DNA of 63,811 nt. It comes from Bryobacteraceae bacterium CoA2 C42 (GTDB taxonomy: Bacteria > Acidobacteriota > Terriglobia > Bryobacterales > Bryobacteraceae). This document shows positions 1,293-63,112 of the stretch, piece after piece. The stretch covers positions 1 through 63,811 of the forward strand of contig JAINDL010000022.1 of assembly GCA_019931245.1 (NCBI GenBank), read 5' to 3'. The notes beneath the pieces were generated by a model that did no database searches, was not told where the DNA came from, and saw only the letters and a list, made by a program, of their open reading frames with translations. Both the position numbers and the translations under genes were made by a program. Every line of letters starts with the position of its first letter. Position 1 is the stretch's first letter.

Positions 1293-1805
1293 CTACAACT
1301 GGCGCAATGCGGCCCAGCGTTCGTCCGGAATCCGGGTGGTGCACGCACAAGTCTGCTCGTTGCGATTCACGCCGCAGACGGGACAGAGGCCTTTGCACCC
1401 GGTCGCACAGAGAGTCTGGGACGGCAAGTCGAGCAGGACCTGCTCGCGGAGCACGTCGGTCAGCTCCATGCCGTCGCCTTCGTAAAAGCCGAGGTCGATA
1501 TCGGCATCCTGTAGTTCCAGCTCCTGGCCCGGCATTGCTTCGGGCAGCGGCTCGTAGGCGAGATCGATGTCGGTATCGACGGCCAGCGAGATAGGGGCCA
1601 GGCAGCGATCACACTCCAAATGCAGGCCAACGGCGAGGTGGCCGGCAACGCGGATCTCCTGGGTCAGCGGATCGAGGGTAGCCTGCCCGGTGGCCTGTAG
1701 GGGGCCGGTCTGGCTGATGTTGGGGGTCCAGGCGATGACGCCGGGTGCGACGGACTCGCTGAACCGGATGGGGCCGAGTTCTAGCTCACGGAGGGAAAGG
1801 AACAT
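1293..1805 (-). CDS. yceD: DUF177 / YceD family protein (23S rRNA accumulation)
   Basis: This 170-residue protein belongs to the YceD/DUF177 family, whose members are needed for normal 23S rRNA accumulation in E. coli and plants. A mid-protein CDRC motif and a C-terminal cysteine cluster (CATGCKGLCPVCG, then CAC) suggest metal binding. The context supports the call: it is immediately upstream of rpmF and plsX on the same strand. The start is the ATG at 1805. The bacterial family is short and variable, so the call rests equally on motif and synteny. Confidence 0.88.
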   Translation of the reverse strand: MFLSLRELELGPIRFSESVAPGVIAWTPNISQTGPLQATGQATLDPLTQEIRVAGHLAVGLHLECDRCLAPISLAVDTDIDLAYEPLPEAMPGQELELQDADIDLGFYEGDGMELTDVLREQVLLDLPSQTLCATGCKGLCPVCGVNRNEQTCACTTRIPDERWAALRQL

Positions 1806-1830
1806 GGACTTCTGCTATCAGGCTAGCAGG

Positions 1831-2598
1831 TCAGCGCAGGAAGCGGCGAAGCCCGAGGTCATAGGCGGCTGCACCGAGCAGTCCACCGACGAGCGGGCCG
1901 GCGATCGGCACCCAGAAGATTCCGGAGCCATCGGTGAGGCCGTTGTTCCGAAACCCGGCCACGACGGTGAACAGGCGGGGGCCGAAGTCGCGGGCGGGGT
2001 TGATGGCATAGCCGTGTAGGGCGCCAAAGGACATGCCGATGGCCACGACGATGAGCCCGATCAGCATCGGGGTGAGGTAGGCGGGCGGCGGATTGCCGTG
2101 TTCATCGGTCACGGCGAGCACGAGGAAAACCAAGAGGGCGGTGCCCAGCATCTGGTCGATCAAGCCGGCCATGGGAGCGGCGGGAAAGGCGGGAAACGTG
2201 GCAAAGACGCCGGCGGTCTTCTCGAGGGCGGGGTCGAACTTCAAGAACGCCTCGCGGTAGTTGAGAAACACGAGGGCGGATCCGGTGAAGGCTCCGGCGA
2301 TCTGTGCGAGGCAGTATGGCAGAACCTTGTTCCACGGGAAGCCGCGGAAGACGGCCAGCGCGAGCGTCACGGCGGGATTCAGATGCCCCCCGCTGATTTT
2401 CGCCGAGACGAGAACCCCGAACATGACAGCGAGGCCCCAGGCGAGGTTGATATTGGTCGTTCCGCCGTTGACGATTTCGCCGGCCTGCCCGGTGCCGAAC
2501 AGGACGACGGCGGCAACAACTCCACCGCCAAGCAGCAGGATGATCAGGGTGCCGAAAAACTCGGCGGCAGTTTCGGCCAGCAGACGAGAGGTAGACAT
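1831..2598 (-). CDS. MIP-family aquaporin / glycerol uptake facilitator
   Basis: This 255-residue integral membrane channel has the two signature half-helix motifs: NPA at residues 74-76 (GGHLNPAVTLA) and NPARD at 200-204 (YAINPARDFGPR). Asp204 directly after the second NPAR is the usual mark of glycerol-conducting GlpF-type channels rather than strict water channels. Six hydrophobic segments are visible and the length is normal. No glycerol kinase or glpD is nearby, so the substrate is inferred from the motif only. It lies in a minus-strand run between an exported protein gene and the yceD-rpmF-plsX cluster, with about 25-bp gaps. Confidence 0.93.
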   Translation of the reverse strand: MSTSRLLAETAAEFFGTLIILLLGGGVVAAVVLFGTGQAGEIVNGGTTNINLAWGLAVMFGVLVSAKISGGHLNPAVTLALAVFRGFPWNKVLPYCLAQIAGAFTGSALVFLNYREAFLKFDPALEKTAGVFATFPAFPAAPMAGLIDQMLGTALLVFLVLAVTDEHGNPPPAYLTPMLIGLIVVAIGMSFGALHGYAINPARDFGPRLFTVVAGFRNNGLTDGSGIFWVPIAGPLVGGLLGAAAYDLGLRRFLR

Positions 2599-2625
2599 GT
2601 CCGACGAGTCTACAACACCTGCGGA

Positions 2626-3660
2626 CTATTTTCCTGGCGGATAGGGAATTTCGAGCGGACCATTTTCGAGGCCCTCGATACGAATCCGCAGCGGAGGCGC
2701 CGGGGCCGGGGGGGGCTGGGGTTGGGGCAGTACCTCCGCGATATCTCGATTGGGCGCGGCGGCGAGCGGCTTTACCGGCAGTCCGAGGACCGCGCCGAGG
2801 GCCGGAAACTCTCCGATGAGGGTGGACTCGCTGAGCGTGCCGGCCAGTGCGAGGCCGCTGGTCCGATGCAGGGCGGTCAACCGGGGCAGCCAGGCCGCGA
2901 GCGAGTAGGAGGGAAGCGGCCGGCGCGAGCGGTCCTGGTCGAGCGCCTGAAGGGCGGCGTCCAGCCGCGCGGACTCCGGCAGTTCGATCCCGATGGTGAG
3001 CGTGGCTTCCGGCTTCACGGTGAGGACCAGCTCCATGCCGGCCCTGGCGTCCCAGGAGGCCGGACCGAAACCGACGGGCAACTCCGCGGTCAAAACCCAG
3101 ACGTCGGCCTCGGGGCCGAATGCAAGCGCCCGGCCGAACAAGGGGTTCGCTTCGCTGAGCGGCCGGCGCGGCCGCCGACCGCGGTCGATTGCGGCGGTCA
3201 GGGCGCGACGGCTGCCGAGCAGAGCGGTCTGGGCATCGATGATCGCAAAGTGGGTCTCGCTGGCCGAGCCGCTAGGCGGTACGATCATCTCGATCCCCTG
3301 ATAAAGGTTGAGCTTTGCCTGTCCGGCGGTCGCCATCTGCTTGATCCGGGCGGCATTCAGCGGCCCGGACAGGATCAGCACCGAGTCGGCGGCGCCATCC
3401 GCCAGGTAAATGGTCGACACGAGCAGACGCTGGACATGGCGGGACAACTCCGGACCCATGGCGGCGAGGAAGCGCTGCCGGAGCTGTTCCCCGGCCGGCG
3501 ATTGACCCAACCGGAACAGATCGGCTCCGGCCAGAATCTGGGCGTCCGGATGGGCGAATCGCCAGGCCGAGGGCTCGGGCCGCTGCGCACTCTCCGGGGC
3601 GGCGGTTCCGGCAGAGGCCAACGCCAGTAGGGTACAAAGAATGGCAAGCAGGGTTCTCAT
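2626..3660 (-). CDS. Exported protein of unknown function
   Basis: I do not recognise a named family. The 344-residue product begins with a clear signal peptide (MRTLLAILCTLLALASAGTAA) and should be periplasmic or outer-membrane associated. The body alternates hydrophobic beta-type segments with Arg/Pro-rich loops and ends in a Pro-rich tail (PQPQPPPAPAPP). Phrases such as SVLILSGPLNAARIKQMA and YQGIEMIVPP resemble acidobacterial exported proteins that score stored or adhesion-like values, but I cannot assign a role. It starts 6 bp after the large TIGR03437 protein gene, so the two are probably co-transcribed. Confidence 0.75.
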   Translation of the reverse strand: MRTLLAILCTLLALASAGTAAPESAQRPEPSAWRFAHPDAQILAGADLFRLGQSPAGEQLRQRFLAAMGPELSRHVQRLLVSTIYLADGAADSVLILSGPLNAARIKQMATAGQAKLNLYQGIEMIVPPSGSASETHFAIIDAQTALLGSRRALTAAIDRGRRPRRPLSEANPLFGRALAFGPEADVWVLTAELPVGFGPASWDARAGMELVLTVKPEATLTIGIELPESARLDAALQALDQDRSRRPLPSYSLAAWLPRLTALHRTSGLALAGTLSESTLIGEFPALGAVLGLPVKPLAAAPNRDIAEVLPQPQPPPAPAPPLRIRIEGLENGPLEIPYPPGK

Positions 3661-3666
3661 GGCGTC

Positions 3667-6033
3667 TCAGCGGAGGGGAAGCAGGACCGTATTCGAACTC
3701 CGTCCATTTACGAAAGCGGTGACGGGGAGTTCACTCGCTGGCGGCAGATCCTCAGGAATCAGCACCCGGATGGCGACCAGACCGACCTGCCCCGGACTGG
3801 CGATGGCGCTGAGCGGGCTGAGCGTTGATCCCCCGATCCGGATCACCACCGGGTGGGCCAGCGGGTTGGGCGGGCTCGGAGGGGCGGGGAAGCCATCGAG
3901 CAGCGGGCGTTGGAATCGGCCAAAACCGGTGCCGACCAGGGTAACGGTCTGCCCGCGCCGGGCCGGGCGATCCGGCGAGACCACGCCGCCATCCTCATGA
4001 GTGGCTGCCCCGTAGATTCTGTCGTCGAGCGGGAAGCCGAACAGGCCGGGAGCCTCGCGGACTACCTCCGCCTTGCCTTCGATGACCGGCTGGTTCCCGG
4101 TGCGGACACCGAAGACCTGTTCACCGTCCGGCAGATCCGAGGGGGCCACGGCATTGATCTGCTCCGGGGAGACGAACAGCAGCGGCAGCATCCGGTTGTT
4201 CCATTGCACGACCGTATTGGCGAGGGACTGGACCGGCGAACCGCCGGGGGCCGCCGCATACGCCGGCGCCAGCATCCGGCCAAAGATGGACACGATACTG
4301 CCGGGCGCGATGACCTTGTCGGGCGTCTCGCCGGCGGCGTTACGGACCCCGGCGGTCGGGATGGTGGGCACGGGATCGAGCAGTGCGCGGACCAACTGGG
4401 GGCTGTTGAGCAACACGAAGCCAAGGTTGGCGCTGCCTTCGAGGTCCCCGGCCCAGCGCCGGAAGCGGTAACCATCGCGGGCGTTGGCCGTCACGCGGAC
4501 GGTGGCTCCGGCAGGATAGAACCCGTCCGGCGAGGCCGGTTCGAAGCTGAAGTCGGACCCATCGGCGGGGTCCGAGACAGCCCGCAGCCGGTTCGACACC
4601 TGATAATTCAGGCTGATGCGCCGTTCGTCTCCCGAGAAGGTAACGGTGCGGCTCTGTTCTCCGGCATCGGACCAGCCGGCGAATTCCGCCCGCGAGTCGG
4701 CGCCGAGTTCGATTACCGGTGAGGCGTCGAGGGAGACGGTTGAACCCGCGGCGCCATCGAGTGTGCACGGCATGGCGCAGATTTCGCCGTTTACCAGCAG
4801 ACGCGAGGCGGGCAGGTTAGTCGAAATGATGAGCCGCGGCATCAGTTCGTAGTTGGCCGTCAGGCGGAGACCCTGGTCGGCCGCATCGGCGCGCAGGGGG
4901 ATCTCCTGAGAGGCGGGGCCACCGTTGGACCAGTTCAGAAAGCGATACTTGCGACCGCGGCTGTCGGTGGTGATGGCCGGTGCGGCAACGGTGTTGGTGC
5001 TGCCGATGGCCCACACGAAATTGTAGGAGGGCCAGTTATCCCGGCCATTGACGGCCAAGCGCAGCCCGGCGGGCTGGGTGAGCAGCGAGACGTTGGCGCC
5101 GCGGACGAAGCGGGCGGTAATCGTCTGCGGGATGTGAGAATCCACTACCTCGTACAATCCGCCGGCTCCGAGCGGAACGTCGAAGGATTCAAAGACCCAG
5201 AGGCGGCCTTGGAGGTCCTGCTGCGGGCTAGGCGCGCTGAACTGGTGGCGGGCCCCGACGGCCAATTCGCGCAGCCCGGGATTGGAGCGGCCGACGTCTT
5301 CCCACCGGCTGACGGTGGGAAAGGGGGAACGGTCGATGGAGACCTGGAAACCCTCCGGTTCGGTATAGAAGAGTACCCGCTTGGCCGGAGCAAACAGCGG
5401 CGTAATACTGGCCGGCCCTCGCACGACATACGACCGGAGAAAGGCATCGCCGGGCGGCGCCCCGTTGACCAGCCAGCCAGTGAAGACGAACCCTGGATTG
5501 GGAACCGCCGCAAGATCAAGAATCGAACCGAGACCGAAATAAGCGGCATAGGAAGACTGGGTGCAGTTGCCGTTTACGAAGAGCTGACCGGGAAAGGGCG
5601 TCGCTCCAGCGCTCGGCAGAGTACAGTCCGTCCGGCCAGGGCTTGCGGTAGTGGAAAAGAAGACGAACTGAATGCGGAACTCAAGCTGGTAAGTTACCCG
5701 GTAGGAGGTGATCGCCGGATCCGCGGTGACCGTCTGAACGGGGTTGGTGGCGCCGGGCAACACCCCGCGGTTATCCTTCCAGTCCGTAAAGCTAAAGCGC
5801 AGATCGATGGAACTGGTTTGCGTCAAAGTGTCCGCCTCGAGCCTATGTTTGCTGCCCGTGGCCCAAACAAAAGACTGGGAACCCCGGTAGCGAACTCCGT
5901 CAACCAGGAAATAGGCATCTGCAGGTTCGGCGAAGACACGAACCTGCGCGGAGTTCTGGGCCCGGCCGTCCAAGGCGAACAGGGCGGCGAACAACGCCAG
6001 AAGAAGATAGCGTGAAACGGCGAGGGAACTCAT
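3667..6033 (-). CDS. Large exported repeat protein with Solibacter-type TIGR03437 C-terminal domain
   Basis: The 788-residue product has a signal peptide, then at least four beta-rich modules each centred on a F-x-x-W-x-x-G type motif (FTGWLVNG, FLNWSNGG, FAGWSDAG, FRRWAGD), reminiscent of divergent InlB/B-repeat or Ig-like surface modules. From about residue 556 (PTAGVRNAAGETPDKVIAPG) to the end it matches the TIGR03437 domain that is amplified in Solibacter-like Acidobacteria (note GSIVSIFG, INAVAPSDL, VTLVGTGFG). The likely location is the cell surface or secreted. Its function is unknown; adhesion or matrix binding is a guess. This domain is one of the strongest taxonomic signals in the window. 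Confidence 0.9.
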   Translation of the reverse strand: MSSLAVSRYLLLALFAALFALDGRAQNSAQVRVFAEPADAYFLVDGVRYRGSQSFVWATGSKHRLEADTLTQTSSIDLRFSFTDWKDNRGVLPGATNPVQTVTADPAITSYRVTYQLEFRIQFVFFSTTASPGRTDCTLPSAGATPFPGQLFVNGNCTQSSYAAYFGLGSILDLAAVPNPGFVFTGWLVNGAPPGDAFLRSYVVRGPASITPLFAPAKRVLFYTEPEGFQVSIDRSPFPTVSRWEDVGRSNPGLRELAVGARHQFSAPSPQQDLQGRLWVFESFDVPLGAGGLYEVVDSHIPQTITARFVRGANVSLLTQPAGLRLAVNGRDNWPSYNFVWAIGSTNTVAAPAITTDSRGRKYRFLNWSNGGPASQEIPLRADAADQGLRLTANYELMPRLIISTNLPASRLLVNGEICAMPCTLDGAAGSTVSLDASPVIELGADSRAEFAGWSDAGEQSRTVTFSGDERRISLNYQVSNRLRAVSDPADGSDFSFEPASPDGFYPAGATVRVTANARDGYRFRRWAGDLEGSANLGFVLLNSPQLVRALLDPVPTIPTAGVRNAAGETPDKVIAPGSIVSIFGRMLAPAYAAAPGGSPVQSLANTVVQWNNRMLPLLFVSPEQINAVAPSDLPDGEQVFGVRTGNQPVIEGKAEVVREAPGLFGFPLDDRIYGAATHEDGGVVSPDRPARRGQTVTLVGTGFGRFQRPLLDGFPAPPSPPNPLAHPVVIRIGGSTLSPLSAIASPGQVGLVAIRVLIPEDLPPASELPVTAFVNGRSSNTVLLPLR

Positions 6034-38696: not shown

Positions 38697-40283
38697 ATGC
38701 GTGTTCTAGCCTACGTCAGCGACGAGATGTACCTCGCCCTGCCCGGGGTCATCGCCGACTTTGCATCGGCCTCCGGCGAGATTACCGTTCTGCACTCCTC
38801 GGCCCGCGGCGCCTTCTACGGCGACCTGCCGCCCGGCACTTACACAGTTACTCTCGCCAAGGACGGCTACGGCGCCAAAACCGTCACGGTTGACCTTACC
38901 ACCCCGCCGCGGTTCCGCCTCCTCGCCGATGGTCTCCTTGGCTATATGTGGCCGAAGTGGGCCGTCGCCGGCGGGAAGAGCGAATACCGCGTCCATTCGA
39001 ACGAGCAGTATCAACTGACGCTCTGGCGCTACGGTCTCAAGAAAGAGTATGTCCGCATGGTCGGCTGGGTGGATGAACATGGCCCCCAGGCCAACCGCCA
39101 GATTCTGCCCGACGGCGACTTCACCCAGACCGGGGTCCACTGGAACAACGACGGCTACCCCTCGCCCCCCATCGTAGAAGCCCCCGAACGCTCCGGGCTC
39201 TACTACCTCTGGGCCCGCACCCCGTCGGGCCGCTCCTTCAGCTTCCCCTGGGTCGTGTCGCCCGCCAAGCCCACCGCGAAGATCGCCGTGCTGGCCGCCA
39301 CGAATAACTGGAACGCCTACAATAACTACGGCGGCCGGAGTAACTATGTCAATCCCACCGGCCTGCCGGCTACCCCGGTGGTCAACTCCCGCCAGGACCT
39401 GAGCCGTTACACCGATGGCCTCCCCTTCGGCAGTTGGCGCCCCGCCGATGAGGAGTATCTTCCGCTCGCCTTTGACCGTCCCGAGCCCAATAACCACTTA
39501 CTCATCGACGGCGAAATCACCGACCCGATTCCCGGCCGCGTCCAATGCGGCCAGGCCCCCGGCGAGTGGCGCCTGTACGGCTGGCTCGAACGCGAAGGCT
39601 TCGACTACGACCTCTACGCCGAGGCCCAACTCCACGACGGCACCCTCGACCTCGATGCTTATCAAATGCTGATCGTCGCCGTCCATCCCGAATACTGGAC
39701 GCGGGAGATGTATCTGCGCGTCAAAAGCTGGGTGTTTGAGCGGGGCGGCAAGTTCCTCTACCTCGCCGGCAACGGCCTGAATTGCGAGGTCACGCTGGCG
39801 GCCGACGGCACCATGCGCTGCCTGTCGCATCTGTACAGCGAGCACGGCGAGATGTGCGGCCGGTTTGAAAGCCGCATGGCCCGCACTTTGGAGTCGGAAG
39901 CCAACCTCCTCGGCGTGGTCTGCACCGAGACCGGTATCATGACCTCGGCGCCATACCGCGTCATCGACGCCGAGCACTGGATCTTCGCCGGCACGGGCCT
40001 TAAGAACGGCGACGAGTTCGGCCACAAGACGCTCCACGAACGCGTTCCCGGCGGCGCCTCCGGCCACGAGACGGACAAGCGCAGCGCGTCGTCGCCGCCC
40101 AACACCGTCCTTCTCGCCAAGGGCACGAACGTCGACGACGGCGGCGCCGAAATCGTTACCTTCGATACGCCCTCCGGCGGCGCCGTTTTCTCGGTCGGAT
40201 CGATCACCTGGGTCTCGGCGCTGTTTCCGGACGCCGATGTTTCCCGCATCACGGCCAACGTGATCCGCCGTTTTTTGCGTTGA
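38697..40283 (+). CDS. N,N-dimethylformamidase beta-subunit-like protein
   Basis: Starting at the ATG at 38697 (GAGGA ribosome binding site five bases upstream) the product is 528 residues. The stretch VLAATNNWNAYNNYGGRSNYVNPTGLPATPVVNSRQDLSRY is a hallmark of the dimethylformamidase large-subunit family, followed by EWRLYGWLEREGFDYDLYAEAQLHDG and WTREMYLRVKSWVFERGGKFLYLAGNGLNCEVTL. True DMFases cleave dimethylformamide with a small subunit, which is not present here, so the real substrate may be another amide. A small N-terminal segment with GDLPPGTYTVTLAKDGYG resembles a beta-sandwich. No signal peptide is evident. Confidence 0.85.
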   Translation: MRVLAYVSDEMYLALPGVIADFASASGEITVLHSSARGAFYGDLPPGTYTVTLAKDGYGAKTVTVDLTTPPRFRLLADGLLGYMWPKWAVAGGKSEYRVHSNEQYQLTLWRYGLKKEYVRMVGWVDEHGPQANRQILPDGDFTQTGVHWNNDGYPSPPIVEAPERSGLYYLWARTPSGRSFSFPWVVSPAKPTAKIAVLAATNNWNAYNNYGGRSNYVNPTGLPATPVVNSRQDLSRYTDGLPFGSWRPADEEYLPLAFDRPEPNNHLLIDGEITDPIPGRVQCGQAPGEWRLYGWLEREGFDYDLYAEAQLHDGTLDLDAYQMLIVAVHPEYWTREMYLRVKSWVFERGGKFLYLAGNGLNCEVTLAADGTMRCLSHLYSEHGEMCGRFESRMARTLESEANLLGVVCTETGIMTSAPYRVIDAEHWIFAGTGLKNGDEFGHKTLHERVPGGASGHETDKRSASSPPNTVLLAKGTNVDDGGAEIVTFDTPSGGAVFSVGSITWVSALFPDADVSRITANVIRRFLR

Positions 40284-40488
40284 ATTTGTCGGCCCGGGGT
40301 CGATGCCTTGCAATCCCGGTGAGGCCCCGGTCGCGACGCCGCCGCGCGGCGACTCCCAGCACGGCCAACGTCACCCGCCGCCTTCGCACGCTTGGCCGGA
40401 TGCCGACTCCGGCCGTCAGGGCCATCCGGTGCTCCCCAGTACGAACAACCTCATCCGTCGCTTTTTACGTTGAGTTCGTAGGCCCGCC
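40252..40488. repeat. Degenerate triplicated gene 3' end
   Basis: The 3' end of the DMFase-like gene (40252-40299, including the stop) is similar to 40441-40488; a shorter related stretch begins at 40361. The copies decode as TANVIRRFLR-stop, TNNLIRRFLR-stop and TANVTRR. The last copy overlaps the C-terminal codons of the minus-strand DUF5655 gene. Between 40300 and 40440 I see no other feature. Confidence 0.75.
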
Positions 40489-41008
40489 GCAGCCACTCCC
40501 GCACGGCCGGCGTGATGCCGGCCGCATCGGCAATGGGGATCCGGTGCGTAATCGCCTCTCCGCCGCCCAGGTTGCGGGCCGGCGCGAGGTCGCAGTCGAT
40601 GCCCCGTAAGCTCAGGCCCAGATCGAGGCGCGTCCGCGTGGTGGCCTGGATCACCGCAAACTGGCTCCGCCGCGCGATCGTCACGTAGGTCCGGCACGGC
40701 TTCAGCGTCACGTCCGCCCCCAGGTCCCGCGCCAGGGCGGCCAACGTCTCATAGAGCGACCGCAGCCCTGCCTTGGGCCCGGCGTACTGCGCCTCCACCA
40801 GCCCCGCGGCGTCTGCGTACGCCGCCGCCGACCCGTCCAGGCTGCTCAGAATCGCCATCGCCGTATTCTGGCCGAGGCCGTAGGTCTGCTTCAGCCACTG
40901 CTTCCGCGCCGCGGGCGTCGCTGGCCCCTTCGCGGCGACAATCGCCATCCACTCCGCCAGCGGCTTGCCGGTTCTCGCCTCGAGGTTGGCGATGACGGCC
41001 GCCATCAT
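40451..41008 (-). CDS. DUF4287/DUF5655 domain protein
   Basis: The 185-residue protein has an N-terminal DUF4287 (MMAAVIANLEARTGKPLAEWMAIV...ARKQWLKQTYGLGQNTAMAILSSLDG) and a C-terminal DUF5655 (LETLAALARDLGADVTLKPCRTYVTIARRSQFAVIQATTRTRLDLGLSLRG ... AVREWLRRAYELN). Family members normally have about eight more residues at the N-terminus (TGKSP-like). The in-frame sequence upstream of this ATG does encode VTGKSPGE but has no standard start codon, so a non-ATG start is possible. Its function is unknown. The start lies 20 bp after the TPR gene stop on the same strand. Confidence 0.87.
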   Translation of the reverse strand: MMAAVIANLEARTGKPLAEWMAIVAAKGPATPAARKQWLKQTYGLGQNTAMAILSSLDGSAAAYADAAGLVEAQYAGPKAGLRSLYETLAALARDLGADVTLKPCRTYVTIARRSQFAVIQATTRTRLDLGLSLRGIDCDLAPARNLGGGEAITHRIPIADAAGITPAVREWLRRAYELNVKSDG

Positions 41009-52693: not shown

Positions 52694-52871
52694 GTTTGTC
52701 CACTAGGGTACCATGTTAATTTGTTGAAAGTAAAACGCTAGAACCAGGGAATCCGCGTTTGGCCGGAGGGGCAGGGCTGGGAAGGCGCCTGGTTCGATGG
52801 GAGTACTGGAGCGTGATCCGGCCGGGCTGTGGCCCGGGCGCCGGAGAGGCAAGCGCGGGGGGCGAGGACCG

Positions 52872-55478
52872 ATGAGCGCAGTCCGGACAACAATAACGGC
52901 CGCCGCGGCGGCGCTGGGGATGGCCTGGGTTGTGCCGGAGGCGCGGGCGGAAAGCCTGACCGTTTCGGCCGCCGCGAGTTTGCGGCCGGCGCTGGAGGAG
53001 GCGGAGCGGGTGTTTGTCCGGATGCGGCCGGAGGCCCGGATCGTTTGGAACTTCGGCGCGAGCGGAGCGCTGCGGCAGCAGATTGAGCAGGGTGCGCCGG
53101 TGGACGTCTTTCTGCCGGCCGCACCGGGGCCGATGGACCGGCTCGAGGCGAAGGGGCTGGTGGCGGCCGGAACGCGGGCGGACCTGCTGCACAACGAGGT
53201 GGTGCTGATAGCGCCGGCCGCGGCTGCGCGGCCGCGCGGTTTCGCTGATCTGACGGACCCGGGGATTCGCACGTTGGCGCTGGGCGATCCGGCGAGCGTT
53301 CCGGCGGGCGAGTATGGCCGTGATGTGTTGCGGTCGCTGGGACTTTGGGAGGCGGTAAGCTCGCGTCTGGTTCTGGCCAAAGATGTCCGGCAGGTACTGA
53401 CCTATGTCGCCGCGGGCGATGCCGATGCCGGGATAGTTTATGCCAGCGATGCGCGGGGAGTCGACCGGGTCCGGGTGGCGGCTGTGGCGCCGCCGGGCAG
53501 CCATGCGCCGATTGTGTACCCGGTGGCGGTACTCGCGGGAGCGAGGCAGCCCGCGCTGGCGCGGGAGTTCGTCGCGTTTCTCCGGGGCCGGGAGGCCGGG
53601 GAGGTGTTCGCGCGGTTTGGTCTGCTGCCCGGATGGCCGGCGCTTGCGCGGCCGGCGGAGCCGCGCAAGCCGTTCGACCTCTCGCCGCTTTGGATCTCCG
53701 TCCGCACCTCCCTCGCGGCGACGCTACTTACCTTTGGGCTGGGGCTGGCGGCAGCGTGGTGGATGCACGGCTACCGGGGCCGGGGGCGGGTCGTGCTCGA
53801 CGGGCTGTTTCTGCTGCCGTTGGTTTTGCCGCCGACGGTGATCGGCTTCTTTCTCCTGCTGGTGTTGGGGCGGGGAAGCGGGTTGGGCCGCCTGCTGGAG
53901 CAGGCGGGTTGGACGATCGCCTTCTCCTGGCCGGCGACCGTGATTGCGGCGACGGTGGTGGCTTTTCCGCTGATGTACCGGGCTTCGCTGGGGGCGCTTG
54001 AGCAGGTGGCGCCGAGTTTGCCGCAGGCGGCGCGGACGCTGGGGGCGTCGGAGTGGCGGGTTTTCCGGCGGGTGAGTCTACCGCTGGCGGGTCCGGGGAT
54101 TCTGGCGGGAACGGTGCTGGCCTTTGCGCGGGCGCTGGGGGAGTTCGGCGCCACGTTGATGCTGGCGGGTAACATTCCGGGCCGGACGCAGACGATGCCG
54201 GTGGCGATCTTTTTCGCGGCCGAGGGCGGGGAGATGGACCGGGCGCTGGCCTGGGTACTGATGACGGTGGCGGTTTCCCTGGGGGCGATTGTGGCGTTGG
54301 GCTACTGGTCGCGCTATCAGCCCCGGCGGAGGAGGGGCGGCGCCGGGGCGACCGAGATTGAGGCGGGCGGGGCGTGGCTGCCGCCGGCAACGGACGAGGC
54401 GCCGGCGCGGGCGGGCGGGGCGACGCTCGCGTTCCGGGCGGCGCGACGGTATGCGGATTTTGCCCTGAACGCGGAGTTTGCCACCACAGGAGCGCGGCTT
54501 GGCCTGCTGGGGGCGTCCGGGTCGGGCAAGAGCCTGACGCTGCGCTGCCTGGCGGGTATCGAGACGCCGGACAGGGGCCGGATGGTGTTGAACGGGCGGG
54601 TGTTGTTTGATGACGTCGAGGGGATCAACCTGCCGCCGGCGGAGCGCCGGATTGGGGTGTTGTTTCAGGATTATGCGCTGTTTCCGCACCTGACGGTGGC
54701 GGACAACATCGGCTTCGGGTTGTCCGGCGCACCGGGCGCGGAGCGGGAGCAGCGGGTGGCGGAGATGCTGCGGCTGGTGCATTTGGAGGGGCTGCGGGAG
54801 CGTTATCCCGAGGAGTTGTCCGGCGGACAGCGGCAGCGGGTGGCACTGGCGCGGGCGCTGGCGCCGCGCCCGGATGCCCTGCTGCTCGATGAGCCGTTTT
54901 CCGCGCTCGATCCGCACCTGCGGCGGCAGTTGGAGAATCAACTGCGAGAGGCGCTGCGGGGCTATCCGGGGGCGGTGGTCCTGGTCACGCACGATATGGA
55001 GGAGGCCTACCGGTTGGGCGAGGAGTTGGTGGTGCTCGACGGCGGGCGCGTGATTGCGGCCGGGGACAGGCAGCGGCTGTTTAAGCGGCCCGGCAGCGTA
55101 GCGGCGGCCCGGTTGACCGGCTGCAAGAACATCTTCGCGGTGGCGGCGGGCGGGGATGGGTGGCTGGCGGTGCCGCAGTTGGGCATCGGGCTGGCGGGGG
55201 CGGACCCGGCGGGTCCACCGCCGACGCACGTTGGGATTCGCGCGCGGCATCTGCGGCTGCGGGTGGAGGGCGGGGGGCGGATCAATGTATTTCCCTGCCG
55301 GCTACGGGCATTGACGGAATCGCCGCACGAGGTGACATTGGGCCTGGCGGTGGGGGAGAGCGGGGCGGCGACGCTGGCGATGCAGATGAGCCGGGAGGAG
55401 TGGCGGATTTGGAGGACGCGGCCGCAGCCCTGGTATGTGGAGTTACCGCCGGAGCAGTTGCTGTGGCTGGTGGGATAG
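52872..55478 (+). CDS. modABC: Molybdate ABC transporter ModA-ModB-ModC in a single chain
   Basis: Starting at the ATG at 52872 (GAGGA five bases upstream) the product is 868 residues. A signal peptide (to EARA, residue 26) leads a ModA-type binding domain (SLTVSAAASLRPALEEAERVF, NFGASGALRQQIEQGAPVDVFLPA; about 27-255). Next is a ModB-type permease (LVLPPTVIGFFLLLVLGRGSG, EWRVFRRVSLPLAGPGILAGTVLAFARALGEFGATLMLAG; to about 483), then a ModC ATPase with Walker A GASGSGKS near 545, LSGGQRQRVALARAL near 648, LLLDEPFSALD, and VTHD, with a C-terminal TOBE-like tail. The frame is unbroken. The usual three genes are one, with the binding domain tethered to the permease. No Mo-box or ModE site was seen in the 178-bp upstream gap. 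Confidence 0.9.
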   Translation: MSAVRTTITAAAAALGMAWVVPEARAESLTVSAAASLRPALEEAERVFVRMRPEARIVWNFGASGALRQQIEQGAPVDVFLPAAPGPMDRLEAKGLVAAGTRADLLHNEVVLIAPAAAARPRGFADLTDPGIRTLALGDPASVPAGEYGRDVLRSLGLWEAVSSRLVLAKDVRQVLTYVAAGDADAGIVYASDARGVDRVRVAAVAPPGSHAPIVYPVAVLAGARQPALAREFVAFLRGREAGEVFARFGLLPGWPALARPAEPRKPFDLSPLWISVRTSLAATLLTFGLGLAAAWWMHGYRGRGRVVLDGLFLLPLVLPPTVIGFFLLLVLGRGSGLGRLLEQAGWTIAFSWPATVIAATVVAFPLMYRASLGALEQVAPSLPQAARTLGASEWRVFRRVSLPLAGPGILAGTVLAFARALGEFGATLMLAGNIPGRTQTMPVAIFFAAEGGEMDRALAWVLMTVAVSLGAIVALGYWSRYQPRRRRGGAGATEIEAGGAWLPPATDEAPARAGGATLAFRAARRYADFALNAEFATTGARLGLLGASGSGKSLTLRCLAGIETPDRGRMVLNGRVLFDDVEGINLPPAERRIGVLFQDYALFPHLTVADNIGFGLSGAPGAEREQRVAEMLRLVHLEGLRERYPEELSGGQRQRVALARALAPRPDALLLDEPFSALDPHLRRQLENQLREALRGYPGAVVLVTHDMEEAYRLGEELVVLDGGRVIAAGDRQRLFKRPGSVAAARLTGCKNIFAVAAGGDGWLAVPQLGIGLAGADPAGPPPTHVGIRARHLRLRVEGGGRINVFPCRLRALTESPHEVTLGLAVGESGAATLAMQMSREEWRIWRTRPQPWYVELPPEQLLWLVG

Positions 55479-55497: not shown

Positions 55498-56622
55498 ATG
55501 CTTCGCCGCGTACTCCCTCTATGTTGGGCGCTGCTTTTCGCGATGACGAGCGAACTGCCGGCGCAGAAGAAAAAGAGTAAGAAAGAGGCCAAGGAGGAGA
55601 TCACGCAGGTTCTCGAGATTCCTCCCGATCCGCCGGCGGCGGTGACGGTCGAGACGGCGCGTCTCGAGTTTCTGGTTTCGCCGATGACGGGCAAGGGGCT
55701 GTTGTCGGCGCAGGTGCGGGAGGCGCTCAAGAGTTTGAAGTCCCAGGCGCGGGGTGGGCAGATTGTGAAGCTCCGAGCTTTTGTGGCGGGCACGGGGGAT
55801 CTGCGCCGGGTGCCGGCGATTGTGAGCGAGGAGTTTACCGAGAAGCGTCTTCCGCTGCCCGCGGTATCGACGATTCAGGTGGGTCTGCTGCCGATGGAGG
55901 GAGCGCAGGTGGTGGTGGAGGCCGTCGTCGCGGCGAAAAAGCCGGTGAACCCCCACGGTCTGGGACTGCTTTCGGGCATGGGCGGTTACGGCAAGGAGGA
56001 GCCGGACAACGTGCTGCCGATGCTCGACCGGGCGCTGGCCGACCTGACGAAGGCGTCGCAGCTGGCCGGGAGCCAGAAGGGCGATGTGGTGAAGGTGACG
56101 TGTATGCTGTCCTCGCTCACGCAGGTGAACGAGGTCCGGTCGCGGGTGGCGGCGGCGTTTCCGGCGGCGGGTTTTACGGCCTTTCAGGCGCAGCGGGGGC
56201 ACGGGGCCGCGCTGGCCGAGTGCGAAGGGGTGGTCCGGTTGGCGAAGGCTCCGGCCGAAGCGGTGCAGTTTCTGAATCCGGCGGATATGGCGCCGTCGCC
56301 GCGGTTTTCGAAGTTCGTGCTGGTGAACGCGCCGCGGTTGGTTCTGACCGGTTCGCAGGTGGCGTTTAACTTTGAAGAGAACGATGTGCGCCTGGCGTTT
56401 AAACGGATGGCGAAGGTGCTTGAGGCGCAGAAGACGAGTACGAAGCAGGTGGTGTTTTCGAACCTCTATCCGATCTCGAACCGTGTCCTTGAGTTGGCGC
56501 GCAAGGTGCGTTTCGAGTTTTTCGATACGGCGAAGCCGCCGGCGAGCACGGCGCTGGTTTTCGAGGGATTGCCGAGTATGGACGCTTCGCTGGGGATTGA
56601 GTTGATCGCGGTGCCGCAGTAG
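55498..56622 (+). CDS. Exported RidA/YjgF-like repeat protein
   Basis: The 374-residue protein has a short signal peptide (MLRRVLPLCWALLFAMTSELPA), a Lys-rich linker, and three segments that each resemble parts of a RidA fold: LPLPAVSTIQVGLLPMEGAQVVVEAVV; the middle unit with DVVKVTCMLSSLTQVNEVRSRVAAAFPAAGFTAFQ; and a final unit with FSNLYPISNRVLELARKVRFEFF. RidA proteins are small cytoplasmic enamine deaminases; an exported chain with tandem copies is unusual. It starts 19 bp after modABC. Catalytic residues are not certain. Confidence 0.6.
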   Translation: MLRRVLPLCWALLFAMTSELPAQKKKSKKEAKEEITQVLEIPPDPPAAVTVETARLEFLVSPMTGKGLLSAQVREALKSLKSQARGGQIVKLRAFVAGTGDLRRVPAIVSEEFTEKRLPLPAVSTIQVGLLPMEGAQVVVEAVVAAKKPVNPHGLGLLSGMGGYGKEEPDNVLPMLDRALADLTKASQLAGSQKGDVVKVTCMLSSLTQVNEVRSRVAAAFPAAGFTAFQAQRGHGAALAECEGVVRLAKAPAEAVQFLNPADMAPSPRFSKFVLVNAPRLVLTGSQVAFNFEENDVRLAFKRMAKVLEAQKTSTKQVVFSNLYPISNRVLELARKVRFEFFDTAKPPASTALVFEGLPSMDASLGIELIAVPQ

Positions 56623-56640: not shown

Positions 56641-58806
56641 TCAGCGCGGAGAATCGGCCTTGCGGAACTGCACCCGACGTATCTGAATCGGTTTTTGACT
56701 GAGGGTAGCGAAGCGCAGTTCGGCCCGCGGCGGCGCGTGGGGCCCGGCGTTGATCAGGAACTCTTTGGCTTCGAACTGGCCGCTGTAAGTGGGGAGCAGA
56801 CGGTTCTGTTCGCTTTGATCATAGCCGGGAAGGGCGTATAGATCCACGCTCAGCGCCTGCGCCTTGCCAACGGGCCCACGGACCTCAAACGAGACCAAGT
56901 AGGCGGTGCTTTTCTCGAGTGCGACCGGCTGAGACAGAACGCTCACGCCGACGCCGGGCGTACATAAGACGGCCTCCTGGGCGACGCCTTTGCGGACGTT
57001 ATCGAGGGTCCAGCCGGCCCAGGCTTCGGGAATGCCCGTGATCCGCACATTACGAACGCGCAGCGGCCGGCGGGCGAGGCTGGCAAAGCGCAGGCGCGCG
57101 GTTGGAGGCGCATCCGGCCCGCTATTCCAGGTGAAGCTAACCGGCTGATAGGCGCCGGTGTGGGTCCGGATGATGCCGTTCTGCTCCGGATGATCGTAGC
57201 CCGGCCCGGCGTACAGATCGACGCTCAACTCTTCGGTGGATCCCTTCTCGCCCCGGACCTCAAACGCTACGGTGTAGGCGCGGTTGGGTTCGAGCGAGAT
57301 ATCGTGCTCGATCAGACTCACCTGTTTGCCGTCCGAGACGAAGATGGCCTCTTCGTCCGCGCCGACCCCGGCCGCGTTCCTGTGCCAGGTTGACCAGGGC
57401 GAATGGCACAAGGTATCGATGGGTCGATGGGCGGTCAACCGCTCGACGATCCCGTCGAGTTGCGGGTTCCGTTCGACCATCGCCGCCTGAATCGCCGGGG
57501 CCTGGCGCCGCATCCACGTTGACAGGGTGAGTCCGCCGCCGGCCGCGAGCAGCAGCAACGCGCCGGCCAGGATCCGCTCGCTGCGCCGGCCGTCGCGGCA
57601 CAGGGAGACGAGGCCCACCGTGCCCGATCCGTAGAGGGGCACGAGCATCGCCACTCCATAGCGGGACTCCACCGAGGACAGGCTGTGTACCCCCAGGTGG
57701 CCCAGGATGAGGGCCCCGACCAGGAACACGGCCCAGCGCTCGGCGGCAGTTGCCGCGCTGCGTTTGCGCCACGCCGCGGCGAGGGTCCCGAGTCCCAGCG
57801 CTACCATGGCCCAGTTGGCCGCTACGACGTAGGGCGAATACCAGGGCGCCAGATCCTCGACATAGGGCAGCGGCAGATCCTGGTCCAGGAGGTTAAAGAC
57901 GTGGCTTCCCCATGTCTTTAGCCCTTCGGAGGGATGCGCGATGTACCAGGCCAGCGGATCGGAGACGCCTGCTTCGATGTCGACGAGAAAGGGGTTTTCG
58001 TACTTGACGCGCGGGTCGGTCCCGGGGGCAATCGAGGTGGTGTACTTCAGGAACATCACGCCCATCATCCGCATGAGGGGGCCCAGTTCGGAGGCGACGA
58101 GCGGGGTGGACCGGCCATGAAAGACCCGGTTGTTTTGCCACTGCGGCCACCAGGGAATCAGGAGACAAACGAGGGCCACCAGCGCGACCCACTGCCTTCG
58201 CCACAGGGCTAAACCGACAATCAGTCCCCCCATCGGCAGCAGGAAGACGTTGGCTGGCCGGACCATCACGAGCGCGCCGCACACCAACCCCCCGGCGGCC
58301 CAGAACCACGCGGGCAGGGGCCGGCCCCACGTCGCGATGCCGGCGGCCAGCAGGAGAGTGCCGAGGGAGAGGGACAGGCTTTCGGTGAGAAAGTAACCCG
58401 GATAGAGCAGGGCAAACGGATGGGCCACTACGCCCGCGTAGGCCGCCAGCGCCACCCAGTTGCGCGCGCCGGCCCGGCGCAGCGCCAGCCAGAGACACGC
58501 CGCCGTTGCCAGATGCAGCCCGAGTTGGGCGGCAAACCCCACCCAGCGCTCGGGTAAATGCAGAAACTGCGACAACCGGATCACCCCGCTCAGAAACGCC
58601 GGATACCCATAGGTTCGTAATTCTGAGTGCAGATACTTGGTAAATACCCCGCGTTCGAGAATGTCCTGGGCGATCGTACGGTAACCATAGGCATCATAGA
58701 CGGGAGGCTTGGGTACGGTGTGCCATCCGTAGAGAAGCGCGAGGAGGATGGCGGCAGCCGTAGCCAGGAGCCACAGGGATCGATGGGAGAGGTTAGGAAT
58801 CCGCAA
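56641..58806 (-). CDS. GT-C type membrane glycosyltransferase with duplicated C-terminal modules
   Basis: The 721-residue protein begins with a hydrophobic helix and PVYDAYGYRTIAQDILERGVF, the ER-loop-like acidic motif of dolichyl-phosphate/ArnT-type GT-C enzymes, then ten or more hydrophobic segments to about residue 430. The C-terminal part has two homologous beta-sandwich modules (VDLYAGPGYDHPEQN and VDLYALPGYDQSEQN), each preceded by a YTVAFEVRG or YLVSFEVRG strand. These may bind the acceptor polymer. Length and composition fit a polyprenyl-phosphate-sugar transferase. It is next to sugar genes. Confidence 0.8.
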   Translation of the reverse strand: MRIPNLSHRSLWLLATAAAILLALLYGWHTVPKPPVYDAYGYRTIAQDILERGVFTKYLHSELRTYGYPAFLSGVIRLSQFLHLPERWVGFAAQLGLHLATAACLWLALRRAGARNWVALAAYAGVVAHPFALLYPGYFLTESLSLSLGTLLLAAGIATWGRPLPAWFWAAGGLVCGALVMVRPANVFLLPMGGLIVGLALWRRQWVALVALVCLLIPWWPQWQNNRVFHGRSTPLVASELGPLMRMMGVMFLKYTTSIAPGTDPRVKYENPFLVDIEAGVSDPLAWYIAHPSEGLKTWGSHVFNLLDQDLPLPYVEDLAPWYSPYVVAANWAMVALGLGTLAAAWRKRSAATAAERWAVFLVGALILGHLGVHSLSSVESRYGVAMLVPLYGSGTVGLVSLCRDGRRSERILAGALLLLAAGGGLTLSTWMRRQAPAIQAAMVERNPQLDGIVERLTAHRPIDTLCHSPWSTWHRNAAGVGADEEAIFVSDGKQVSLIEHDISLEPNRAYTVAFEVRGEKGSTEELSVDLYAGPGYDHPEQNGIIRTHTGAYQPVSFTWNSGPDAPPTARLRFASLARRPLRVRNVRITGIPEAWAGWTLDNVRKGVAQEAVLCTPGVGVSVLSQPVALEKSTAYLVSFEVRGPVGKAQALSVDLYALPGYDQSEQNRLLPTYSGQFEAKEFLINAGPHAPPRAELRFATLSQKPIQIRRVQFRKADSPR

Positions 58807-59285
58807 GGTAAGTGGTAACTGACCAGACTACCAATTGGCGGGAAGGAGTGCCAAGCGGGGCCAGCCCGTCATGCGCGGGAAGAAAGCGCGGGAAGAAAGC
58901 GCGGGAAGAAAGGGGGGCGGCGATCGCGCGGAGGACAGATTGGGCTGTTTGTTGCCAGGTGAACGCAGCGGCTCTTTGTTTGCCTCTTTTGATCAGGGCG
59001 GGGGCGGTGAGTGCCTTTTGCATTTGCTCGGCGGGGGCTGTCGCGTTTCCCGGGCGGAAGTGGAGGGCTCCTTCGGCGCTGACGTCGCGCATGGTGCGGG
59101 CGCTGGCGCAGATGGTGGGGAGTCCGGCGGCCATGGCTTCAAGGATTGGCATGCCGAAGCCTTCGAAGGTTGAGGGGAAGACGAAGAGGCTGGCGAGGCG
59201 GTAGAGGTCGTATAAGTCCTCCCGGTCGAGCCGGTAATCTCGACGTTTGGGCCGGCTTTGGCTTCTATTGCTGCTGTGTTACAGA
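58793..59285 (-). pseudogene. Truncated, frameshifted glycosyltransferase copy
   Basis: Pieces in two frames (IEAKAGPNVEITG, then MPILEAMAAGLPTICASARTMRDVSAEGALHF, KALTAPALIKRGKQRAAAFTWQQTAQSVLRA) are clearly a partial copy of the C-terminus of the intact enzyme at 62045-63112 (MPILEAMAAGLPTICADARPMRDVSADGALHF). The frame is broken near 59230. The N-terminal two thirds are missing and are replaced by a transposase remnant at 59290. The region also includes a 13-bp triple tandem repeat at its 3' part. Confidence 0.85.
58874..58912. repeat. 13-bp tandem repeat, three copies
   Basis: CGCGGGAAGAAAG is repeated perfectly at 58874-58886, 58887-58899 and 58900-58912. It lies in the 3' part of the degenerate glycosyltransferase copy; 13 bp is not a multiple of three, so each copy shifts the frame. 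Confidence 0.93.
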
Positions 59286-59289
59286 CGAA

Positions 59290-60215
59290 AAGTGCCACAT
59301 AGCGGGCGGGAAGTGGTTCCTTACCCGGAGGCCAGGCGGATGGCGTCGGCTGAATGCCCACGACGAATTCCAGTCCCATATCCAGCCCCCATGTTTCGCA
59401 AGGCTTGGCGGAACCTGGTGTCGTTGCCGTAAGCGGCGTCAGCGACCACGGGCGCGCGCGGAATTCCCTCGGTGACGGCTTGCGGGATCTGTTCGGCGGC
59501 GATGAGCGGTTTGGTGCGGAACACGGCATCATCTGGCACACCGGGTCTGGCACACCGGCCTTGCGGCGCCGTTCGGGGTCTTCGCTCCAGAGTTCCGGCA
59601 GGTAGAGTTCGTCGGCGATGGGGAGGCTGGCGGATACCGTGCTGATGGACAGGCTGACGGCGACCTGGCAGTCGTCCTGTTTGCCGACTTGGCCGCAGTA
59701 TTGCCGGGCGACGCCAACGGAGTGTTTGCCTTTCCTTCTTAGGAACTCGCGCACGACGGACTCGCTTCGGCCCGGCAGGAGGGGCGAGTTCCTCGCCCAT
59801 TGGTGCCGGGCCTGCGCGGCCTGTGCGCTTCTTGGAAACGCCGGTATCGTCGACCACCCAGGCGGAGAGGGGCGCACGGGAGGTCATCTGCGGCAGGACG
59901 TAGTGGCGGACGGCTTGGAGGAGAAGTTGGTCATTCCAGGGCGCTACGGCAACGACGTGATGCAGCGATTGATGAGCGCGCCGGACATCGTTCGTATCGA
60001 GACGGGGTTGGGGGCAAGACGAGCGGCCATGGGTTCCACGCTTTTGCGCTCTCCGGGCAAGAGGAGGCCGAGGCAGTAGCTGGTTAAGGGCTGATGCCGG
60101 TCCTTGTGTCCTGGTTTCCTGCCGCTTGCGCCAGACCCTGAAGGTAGGCGGCAAGACGCTGCTCGCGTGGGCCTGGCGCGGGGGGAGGTTGCGGGACCAC
60201 GGTCGGAGTGTATCG
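59290..60215 (-). mobile_element. Decayed IS701-type transposase
   Basis: Fragments in several frames form an IS701-family transposase: LLPGERKSVEPMAARLAP, the DDE-type VVDDTGVSKKR, KHSVGVARQYCGQVGKQDDCQVAVSLS, LPELWSEDPERRRKAGVPD, VVADAAYGNDTRFRQALRN and EFVVGIQPTPSAWPPGKEPLPAR. At least three frameshifts break it, and the 3' end is missing at the junction with the glycosyltransferase fragment near 59285. I could not find terminal inverted repeats. The copy is inactive and may once have disrupted a sugar gene. From 60216 to 60380 I see nothing beyond weak coding traces. Confidence 0.85.
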
Positions 60216-62044: not shown

Positions 62045-63112
62045 TTACGTCTGCCTCGATTCCTCGATCGCCTCCGCAGCGCGTAAGACGGCCAGGGCCG
62101 TTTTCTGCCAGGTGAACTCGGCGGCGCGTTGTTTTCCTCTTTCGATGAGGCCGGGGGCGGTGAGGGCCTTTTCCATCTGTTCGGCGAGGGCGGAGGCGTT
62201 GCCGGCAGGGAAGTGGAGGGCTCCGTCGGCGCTGACGTCGCGCATGGGGCGGGCGTCGGCGCAGATCGTCGGGAGGCCGGCGGCCATGGCTTCGAGGATC
62301 GGCATGCCGAAGCCTTCGAAGGTCGAGGGGAAGACGAAGAGGCTGGCGCGGCGATAGAGGTCGTATAAGTCCTGGCGGTCCAGCCAGCCGGTGATCTCGA
62401 CGTTGGGGCCGGCCTTGGCTTCGATGGCTTGCGTGTGGAAGCCTTTCATTCCGGCCAGGACGAGGCGGTATTCAGGGTGGGTTTGGCGGAACTTCTCGAA
62501 GGCTTCTAATAGGGTCTCGATGCCTTTGTGGGGGTGGAGGGTGGAGACGCAGAGGACGATGGGTGCGGTGCGCTGGGCGTTGAGGGTGGGGAAGACTTCG
62601 CCGACGCCGGGTGGGGCTATGTGAATGCGGTCGAGGGGGACTTTGTAGATCTCGTGGATGTCTTCTTTGGACTTTTCGCTTAAGGTCAGGATGGCCTTCG
62701 AGCGGCGAGCGGCGGCCCAGACTAAGAAGCGCCAGGCGAGTAAGTCGGCGGGTTTGAAGTATTCGGGGTGGCGCTTGTGCTGGAGGTCGTGGATCCAGGT
62801 GAGTTGCGGGCAGCGGGCGAGGCACGGGGCGGTGAAGCCGGGATTTAAGAGGATGTCGCAGTCGCCGGTGGAGAGCACGAACTGCTCCCAGAGGATGCGG
62901 CCGGGACGGAAGCGGGCGTGGACGGGTTGGGGCCAGAGCTGGAAGCGGGGATCGGCGGGGGCGAGGTCGGGGCCGGTTTCGCGGTTGGTGAAGAGGAGAT
63001 ACTCGTGGTCGTTAGGCTCCTGGGCGAGGGCCTGGAGTAAGTTGCGGAGATAGATTTCGGTGCCGCCGACCTCGCCGGGGAGGAGATAGAGGGCGTTAAC
63101 GCCGATTCGCAT
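62045..63112 (-). CDS. Glycosyltransferase family 4 (GT1-like)
   Basis: The 355-residue GT-B enzyme starts MRIGVNALYLLPGEVGGTEIYLRNLLQAL and has the family core: WIHDLQHKRHPEYFKPADLLAWRF, KAILTLSEKSKEDIHEIYKVPLDRIHIAPPGVGE, IVLCVSTLHPHKGIETLLEAFEKF, and FVFPSTFEGFGMPILEAMAAGLPTI, with the E-x7-E signature. It transfers a sugar from an NDP donor in surface polysaccharide synthesis. It overlaps the upstream TPR gene by 17 bp. A truncated paralogue sits at 58793-59285. Confidence 0.93.
   Translation of the reverse strand: MRIGVNALYLLPGEVGGTEIYLRNLLQALAQEPNDHEYLLFTNRETGPDLAPADPRFQLWPQPVHARFRPGRILWEQFVLSTGDCDILLNPGFTAPCLARCPQLTWIHDLQHKRHPEYFKPADLLAWRFLVWAAARRSKAILTLSEKSKEDIHEIYKVPLDRIHIAPPGVGEVFPTLNAQRTAPIVLCVSTLHPHKGIETLLEAFEKFRQTHPEYRLVLAGMKGFHTQAIEAKAGPNVEITGWLDRQDLYDLYRRASLFVFPSTFEGFGMPILEAMAAGLPTICADARPMRDVSADGALHFPAGNASALAEQMEKALTAPGLIERGKQRAAEFTWQKTALAVLRAAEAIEESRQT

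Follow-up and report, generated by a model that had tools for sequence, protein, structure and literature searches.

Within the window, i.e., the whole stretch of 63,811 nucleotides from Bryobacteraceae bacterium CoA2 C42 considered here, a single gene, hereafter modABC, carries in one reading frame the binding protein (ModA), the permease (ModB) and the ATPase of a molybdate importer of the ATP-binding cassette (ABC) type. Quite probably, the product of modABC is by itself one full half of a molybdate ABC importer of type I, where paired chains would each keep a tethered ModA domain, and the fusion had a single origin. As judged from sequence comparison and a structural model, the best reading is a homodimeric type I importer of molybdate (perhaps tungstate) in which both binding domains are tethered and ModA does not occur free. 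The single-frame fusion is real and conserved, and the novelty lies in a single chain holding the complete half-importer and in the persistence of this arrangement in this lineage; all of the parts are familiar, a two-gene form was already known, and the surprise is in that respect moderate.

One Reading Frame for Three Predicted Functions

As the sequence-only reading had proposed, the frame is single and unbroken, starting with the ATG at position 52872 and running for 868 codons. The same fusion is present at six further acidobacterial loci. If the frame is counted from its most upstream ATG, at 52797, it gives an open reading frame of 893 amino acids (aa) at 52797-55478 (+). The features along modABC are the following:

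52872-55478, +, modABC frame, 868 codons without internal stop
52872-52949, +, predicted signal peptide, residues 1-26 (hydropathy peak at residues 3-21; Ala-x-Ala before residue 27, read from the translation)
52950-53627, +, ModA-type molybdate-binding domain, residues 27-252 (TIGR01256 above cut-off)
53628-53681, +, A-B tether, residues 253-270, with a variable core of 14 aa at 255-268 (predicted local distance difference test, pLDDT, below 50 at 255-266)
53682-54326, +, ModB-type permease with five long membrane helices (TIGR02141, model and hydropathy)
54327-54425, +, B-C linker, residues 486-518, disordered in the model (pLDDT below 50 at 486-512)
54426-55139, +, ABC ATPase domain, residues 519-756 (PF00005 and motifs)
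55140-55475, +, C-terminal beta tail, residues 757-868 (confident strands in the model)
55476-55478, +, modABC stop codon

NCBIfam and Pfam give the same domain order along the one chain, namely ModA, ModB permease and ABC ATPase. The NCBIfam profile of ModA (TIGR01256) matches residues 34-250 with 190.9 bits for a cut-off of 62.5, and that of ModB (TIGR02141) residues 274-480 with 240.3 bits for a cut-off of 182.6, while Pfam places SBP_bac_11 at 29-251, BPD_transp_1 at 290-485 and ABC_tran at 539-676. Among solved relatives, ModA structures cover residues ~26-251, and FbpC, PotA and molybdate-importer ATPases fall within 519-812. The Ala-x-Ala motif ahead of residue 27 corresponds to the cleavage rule of signal peptides. 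In the ModA domain, S36, S64, A145, V172 and Y190 align with S12, S39, A125, V152 and Y170 of Escherichia coli ModA, which we take to be its ligand-contacting residues, all five being kept.

An AlphaFold2 model of one modABC chain was obtained from an alignment of 62 rows, where the unfused ModA rows were cut to 190 residues, as MAFFT scattered their last ~40 ModA residues, and where the end of ModA rests on the seven fused rows. The model has a mean pLDDT of 87.6 and a predicted template modelling score (pTM) of 0.66, with both joints disordered (A-B at 255-266 and B-C at 486-512). Its ModA part matches the molybdenum-binding domain 4kd5_A with a template modelling score (TM-score) of 0.97 of the target. 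In the ModB part, membrane helices are predicted at 271-300, 306-332 (in two pieces), 353-378, 394-423 and 455-482, in agreement with hydropathy, and the EAA-type loop reads AARTLGA at 386-392. The EAA loop is cytoplasmic in such permeases. If the loop separating the third from the fourth of the five helices is cytoplasmic, the N-terminus of the permease should lie outside, where a secreted ModA can be joined to it; a five-helix ModB would thus suit an external ModA and an internal ATPase, and having the binding domain and the permease in a single polypeptide agrees with the topology expected from the number of helices. By comparison, the ModB of Archaeoglobus fulgidus has six helices per subunit and could not be fused in this way, since its N-terminus would be inside.

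The ATPase and its C-Terminal Tail

The ATPase exhibits a Walker A motif (GASGSGKS) at residue 547 and a signature motif (LSGGQRQ) at residue 649. In NCBIfam, it matches several other importer ATPases about as well as ModC and, since the ModC profile TIGR02142 stays below its cut-off, it is best described as a molybdate-importer ATPase by context rather than as a ModC equivalog. The sequence-only reading had listed a signal peptide, ModA, ModB and a ModC ATPase with a TOBE-like tail; the first three hold, as does an ABC ATPase, which however falls short of the ModC cut-off, and the tail does not hold as worded. No Pfam TOBE match was obtained in the tail up to E = 5, although a beta domain itself is confidently predicted over residues 757-868 (ten-residue mean pLDDT of 79-96). 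Likewise, five related ATPases, i.e., from three fused proteins, one member of the Clostridia and one cyanobacterium, were devoid of TOBE matches in Pfam at E values up to 1, and in the same scan the tail of E. coli ModC matched TOBE (PF03459) at 6.5e-19. A regulatory Mop/TOBE tail on ModC is of the E. coli type and not universal.

With Foldseek, the best PDB matches of the model are MalK, PotA and FbpC chains over ~360-370 columns, e.g., the FbpC 9j4r_B with 364 aligned columns and a TM-score of 0.86 of the target. Such aligned lengths suggest that the alignment covers the ATPase and the tail together, the latter being probably of the FbpC/PotA/MalK type and not a Pfam TOBE/Mop domain. For a tail without TOBE, an inhibition of the Mop type by internal molybdate is unsupported.

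Distribution of the Fusion

A scan of genome contigs built on six short peptides of the modABC protein, which could overlook unrelated ABC fusions, left 80 loci, where ModA, ModB and the ATPase share a single frame in six (L002-L006 and L008), all acidobacterial by name, and in none of the others. Aligned with the window protein, these six fused proteins are 59-97% identical to it, L002 being the nearest record. The fusion was further searched for by group, with E limits from 1e-60 to 1e-120 at which weaker fusions could be missed. In the family of the window, 27 of 237 genomes match at 1e-60, comprising (i) seven with the fusion, i.e., that of the window and six others corresponding to L002-L006 and L008 by coordinates or identity, (ii) five with modA beside a fused modBC, (iii) 14 with separate B and C genes, and (iv) one, G011 (L105), whose permease-ATPase frame of 647 aa is more distant. 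Within the genus (19 genomes), six carry the fusion, 12 a distant ModA-type match, and one no match.

An even sample of the class gave 27 matches in 399 genomes at 1e-120, five of them fused and all among the seven, and none of the eleven unfused loci read in this sample (0/11) turned out to be fused. In an even sample of the phylum (27/396 matching), no fusion appeared besides that of the window itself. For cyanobacteria, 84 of 339 genomes match at 1e-100, of which none spans A to C free of stops and nine span it with stops; for Bacillota (60/299 at 1e-70), none has the three parts in a single frame. Loci were chosen for reading when an open frame exceeded 840 aa and stops between A and C were not already apparent, namely nine such cyanobacterial loci, to which two of 676-701 aa were added, and ten of Bacillota including other suspects. 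ModA is separate in 10 of the 11 cyanobacterial loci, the remaining one (L196) showing no ModA in the fetched stretch, and in all ten of Bacillota, which carry three genes. Among seven plasmid records, the genes are separate in the five annotated ones reaching ModA and ModB, H6 being unannotated and the match in H7 reaching the ATPase only.

One-chain ModABC thus came only from genomes that bear an acidobacterial name or group with that of the window, Proteobacteria and many other phyla lying outside the groups searched as such; within these groups, the earlier claim that three molybdate-importer parts on one chain are uncommon is borne out. In the accessible portions of the open-licence PubMed Central (PMC) literature, including work on Solibacter and Bryobacter, no report of a one-chain ModABC was found; as far as its accessible portion goes, a comparative survey of molybdenum use counts ModABC systems and mentions molybdoenzymes in its section on fusions (PMC6147048).

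Origin of the Fusion

In seven acidobacterial relatives (L089-L093, L113 and L114), modA is followed in another frame by a fused modBC, the ends of the two genes overlapping. With the modBC starts read from the sequence rather than taken from annotation, the modA stop and modBC start share four bases (GTGA or ATGA) in five of the seven and one base (TGATG or TAATG) in the other two. A further acidobacterial modA/modBC pair is found at L208, and most cyanobacterial relatives also have modA and modBC.

Such overlaps bear on the possibility that the fusion results from a sequencing or assembly error, by which a stop was lost or a frame shifted: where sister genes share only one or four bases, they might appear joined after a small error, and the six related records are metagenome assemblies. 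Against this, the join is present in seven genomes, six of them with proteins 59-97% identical to that of the window, through a linker of 14-15 residues whose sequence differs from one protein to the other and which is longer than a plain joining of the sister gene ends would give. Since the seven genomes agree on a single-frame join, an artefact, which would require a common error in all of them, was rejected and hardly deserves any credence.

In phylogenetic trees, the seven fused proteins make up one side of one branch within the acidobacterial sequences, with support of 99/97 for ModBC and 99 for ModA, and the fusion corresponds to one change on the tree. A second pair of trees was computed without five long or outgroup rows (L112, L045, L022, L023 and L041), three of which are cyanobacterial ModBC. 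The unfused A|BC genes nearest to the fused clade are L113 and L114 in the ModBC tree (92/93) and those of the window's family in the ModA tree. In the reduced tree, acidobacterial ModBC and nine cyanobacterial ModBC group together at 93/94, below the starred level, which would hint at a single older B-C fusion, but the three more divergent cyanobacterial ModBC left out of it stand outside that group in the fuller tree with the E. coli outgroup. Considering the gene arrangements in Bacillota, cyanobacteria and Acidobacteria, the fusion would seem to conclude a series going from three genes (A, B, C) to two (A|BC) and then to one (ABC).

From these comparisons, the fusion apparently arose once, in one lineage of Acidobacteria, and its source was most likely a modA neighbouring an already fused modBC with overlapping stop and start. 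As indicated by the ends of the sister genes, the joining of A to BC required a change of frame and several added residues, and not the mere loss of a stop. In the portion available, a 2011 study reported full-length ModBC solely in cyanobacteria and algae (PMC3627308), a range which the acidobacterial modBC genes, as identified from their sequences, extend.

Possible Separate Products and Other Ligands

When counted between two conserved stretches, i.e., LPG/VPG (end of ModA) and DLSPLWIS (start of ModB), the A-B tether is 14 residues long in three of the seven fused proteins (window, L002 and L006) and 15 in the other four. Its sequence shows little likeness among them except for the close pair formed by the window and L002, and the B-C linker differs in both length and sequence. 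Between the window and L002, the tether (residues 253-270) shows three synonymous changes and one non-synonymous change, counts too small for a test, and the whole of modABC has a ratio of non-synonymous to synonymous changes per site (pN/pS) of 0.27.

Several observations weigh against a one-chain molybdate importer with permanently tethered ModA. First, proteolysis of the tether may occur: the chain would be made whole and then cut in the periplasm, releasing free ModA from a two-domain ModBC half-transporter. The tether is indeed disordered in the model and unconserved in sequence, and a free binding protein is described as the usual state in Gram-negative bacteria in the accessible part of PMC9732360. 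Still, a disposable joint would not require a length as constant as 14-15 residues in 7/7 proteins, and the translation shows no hydrophobic stretch ahead of any possible cut site within the linker, so that this course of events is considered unlikely. The lack of a cleavage site put forward by the sequence-only reading is a judgement by eye and does not prove survival of the tether.

Second, start codons at or beside the ModB start could make an additional separate ModBC possible in three relatives: in-frame starts are found one codon before the conserved ModB stretch in L003 (ATG) and L008 (TTG), the latter also having a GTG seven codons before, and one codon after it in L004 (TTG). There would then be two products, the full ModABC and an internally started ModBC, combining into transporters with one or no tethered ModA, and these codons lie near where sister modBC genes start. 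On the other hand, there is no in-frame start codon in the final ten codons preceding the ModB stretch in the window, L002, L004, L005 and L006. In the window, the nearest in-frame ATG, GTG or TTG are 24 codons ahead of the start of this stretch and 29 codons past it, leaving none between 23 codons upstream and 28 downstream, and an intact separate ModBC thus has no obvious internal start there. The formation of two products is likewise considered quite unlikely.

Third, the ModC profile TIGR02142 matches residues 521-740 with 205.1 bits, below its cut-off of 285.05, and the importer might serve another oxyanion, e.g., tungstate in the first place, instead of molybdate. In support of this possibility, both molybdate and tungstate are generally bound by ModA-type proteins, and the ATPase, besides scoring below the ModC cut-off, is equally near several other importer ATPases. 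As opposed to this, the ModA and ModB domains both score above curated molybdate cut-offs and 5/5 ligand residues are kept; moreover, the genome holds several molybdoenzyme-family genes and no other ModA, the tungstate-type TupA and WtpA not having been searched for. A different primary ligand is therefore deemed rather improbable. Lastly, the model is a monomer with a pTM of 0.66, by which the relative placement of domains is unproven, the identified neighbours of modABC are nucleoside-metabolism and RidA-like genes instead of molybdenum genes, and the modABC locus has no Rfam match at gathering scores.

A Proposed Tethered Importer and its Known Counterparts

For the homodimeric importer with two tethered ModA, the following steps can be proposed: (i) the signal peptide would send the ModA domain to the periplasm and then be removed, (ii) ModA would stay tied by the flexible linker of 14 residues to the first helix of the five-helix ModB, according to the predicted topology, (iii) two chains would pair, as in type I importers generally, to form two permease halves, two ATPases and two tethered ModA, and (iv) one ModA at a time would close on molybdate or tungstate and dock on the common permease mouth. 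The tether would provide a high local concentration of ModA in place of a free pool, and joining ModA to the permease would remove free diffusion from docking and fix two ModA per homodimer. It is proposed more tentatively, and with some doubt, that the working form of this diderm importer is just a homodimer, carrying two tethered ModA and lacking any pool of free binding protein, that selection has held the length of the tether because this length sets the local concentration of ModA, and that the binding domains cooperate as in OpuA.

ModABC of E. coli performs the same three functions, and its ModA, ModB and ATPase align with modABC of the window; it consists however of three proteins, with a ModC bearing a Pfam TOBE tail that modABC lacks. 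Cyanobacterial ModBC follows the same permease-ATPase order along the chain, with 45-52% identity over the matched part, but there ModA is separate (10/11 loci read). When the fused modBC of Anabaena variabilis was inactivated, no molybdenum uptake took place at 1 uM, according to the available part of PMC3627308, citing Zahalak 2004. The importer of A. fulgidus (ModBC-A) is also a type I molybdate importer, though with a free ModA, whose docking needs molybdate, which is not so in the Haemophilus influenzae system (PMC6453779, portion available).

As in modABC, the binding domain is covalently carried by the permease in OpuA, GlnPQ and EgtU, so that there are two or more per transporter. The ATPase of GlnPQ is a separate protein. 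The same holds, in the accessible portions, for OpuA (PMC11065425) and EgtU (PMC9732360), whereas modABC has its ATPase on the chain. Covalently linked binding domains are functional in OpuA, where each of the two joined domains, which meet transiently, has a linker of 11 residues and an anchoring helix (PMC11065425, portion available). In the window, modABC has a tether of 14 residues compared with these 11 plus the helix.

Acidobacteria are diderms. Binding domains are typically soluble in Gram-negative bacteria and lipid-anchored or fused in Gram-positive bacteria, as stated in the accessible portion of PMC9732360, and a fully fused importer in Acidobacteria is unusual, since that source describes fused binding domains as a Gram-positive habit. 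A lineage trading a free binding protein for a tethered 1:1:1 design would offer a natural way to probe the purpose of the free pool, since a free binding protein is normal in Gram-negative bacteria. As the likely intermediate, i.e., modA overlapping modBC, survives in relatives, a direct comparison of tethered and untethered importers would be feasible. By its simplicity, a homodimeric type I importer made from one gene, if true, would also lend itself to structural and single-molecule studies.

Genomic Context

In its genome, which is 97.7% complete, modABC is the sole ModA match, and of six ModB matches only modABC lies above the cut-off. The genome further comprises four matches to the molybdopterin-oxidoreductase family PF00384, at three places, and three to the xanthine-dehydrogenase-type family PF02738. 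One of the PF00384 matches, on contig C9 of G000 (39039-40670, L162/L163), includes one in-frame TGA, which may be a selenocysteine codon or the sign of a broken gene.

Upstream of modABC, nucleoside-salvage genes lie on the opposite strand, and downstream is the following gene:

55498-56622, +, RidA/L-PSP gene, 374 aa (PF01042 in three stretches), 19 bases after the modABC stop

A RidA-like gene directly follows the fused gene in four of the six related loci (L002, L003, L006 and L008, not L004 or L005) and is perhaps co-transcribed with modABC; by eye, the 374-aa RidA-like protein looks secreted. No molybdenum genes occur among the genes scanned around modABC of the window, L003, L004 and L005, and a scan for sigma-70-like promoters found none, with 0.3 expected. 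Farther along the window, a DDE_5 transposase is split between two frames at 58796-60154 (-) beside a short glycosyltransferase fragment resembling, by eye, the intact glycosyltransferase at 62051-63112; it looks like an insertion-sequence remnant adjoining a partial gene copy.

Distant ModA-Type Genes and Other Loci

Twelve genomes of the same genus (L146-L157) lack the fusion and possess a distant ModA-type protein (29-37% identical). No ModB or ModC was found in the fetched flanks of this gene in G085, G086 and G098. In two genomes of this genus, the ModA-like match sits within a long frame, namely 1428-4313 (-) of L176, with 962 aa in G098, and 1526-4366 (-) of L177, with 947 aa in G085. 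The extra part of both matches Pfam NAD-GH at E ~1e-178, and in G098 (L176) a 643-aa Hsp70 gene lies on the strand opposite to it. Given this opposite-strand Hsp70 in G098, the long frame was rejected as a ModA fusion and taken as antisense read-through, the NAD-GH match being probably an antisense shadow of dnaK. In Desulfosporosinus (L026, L028 and L032), two sets of molybdate-importer-like genes stand in tandem within ~5 kb, the second in the order B, C, A.

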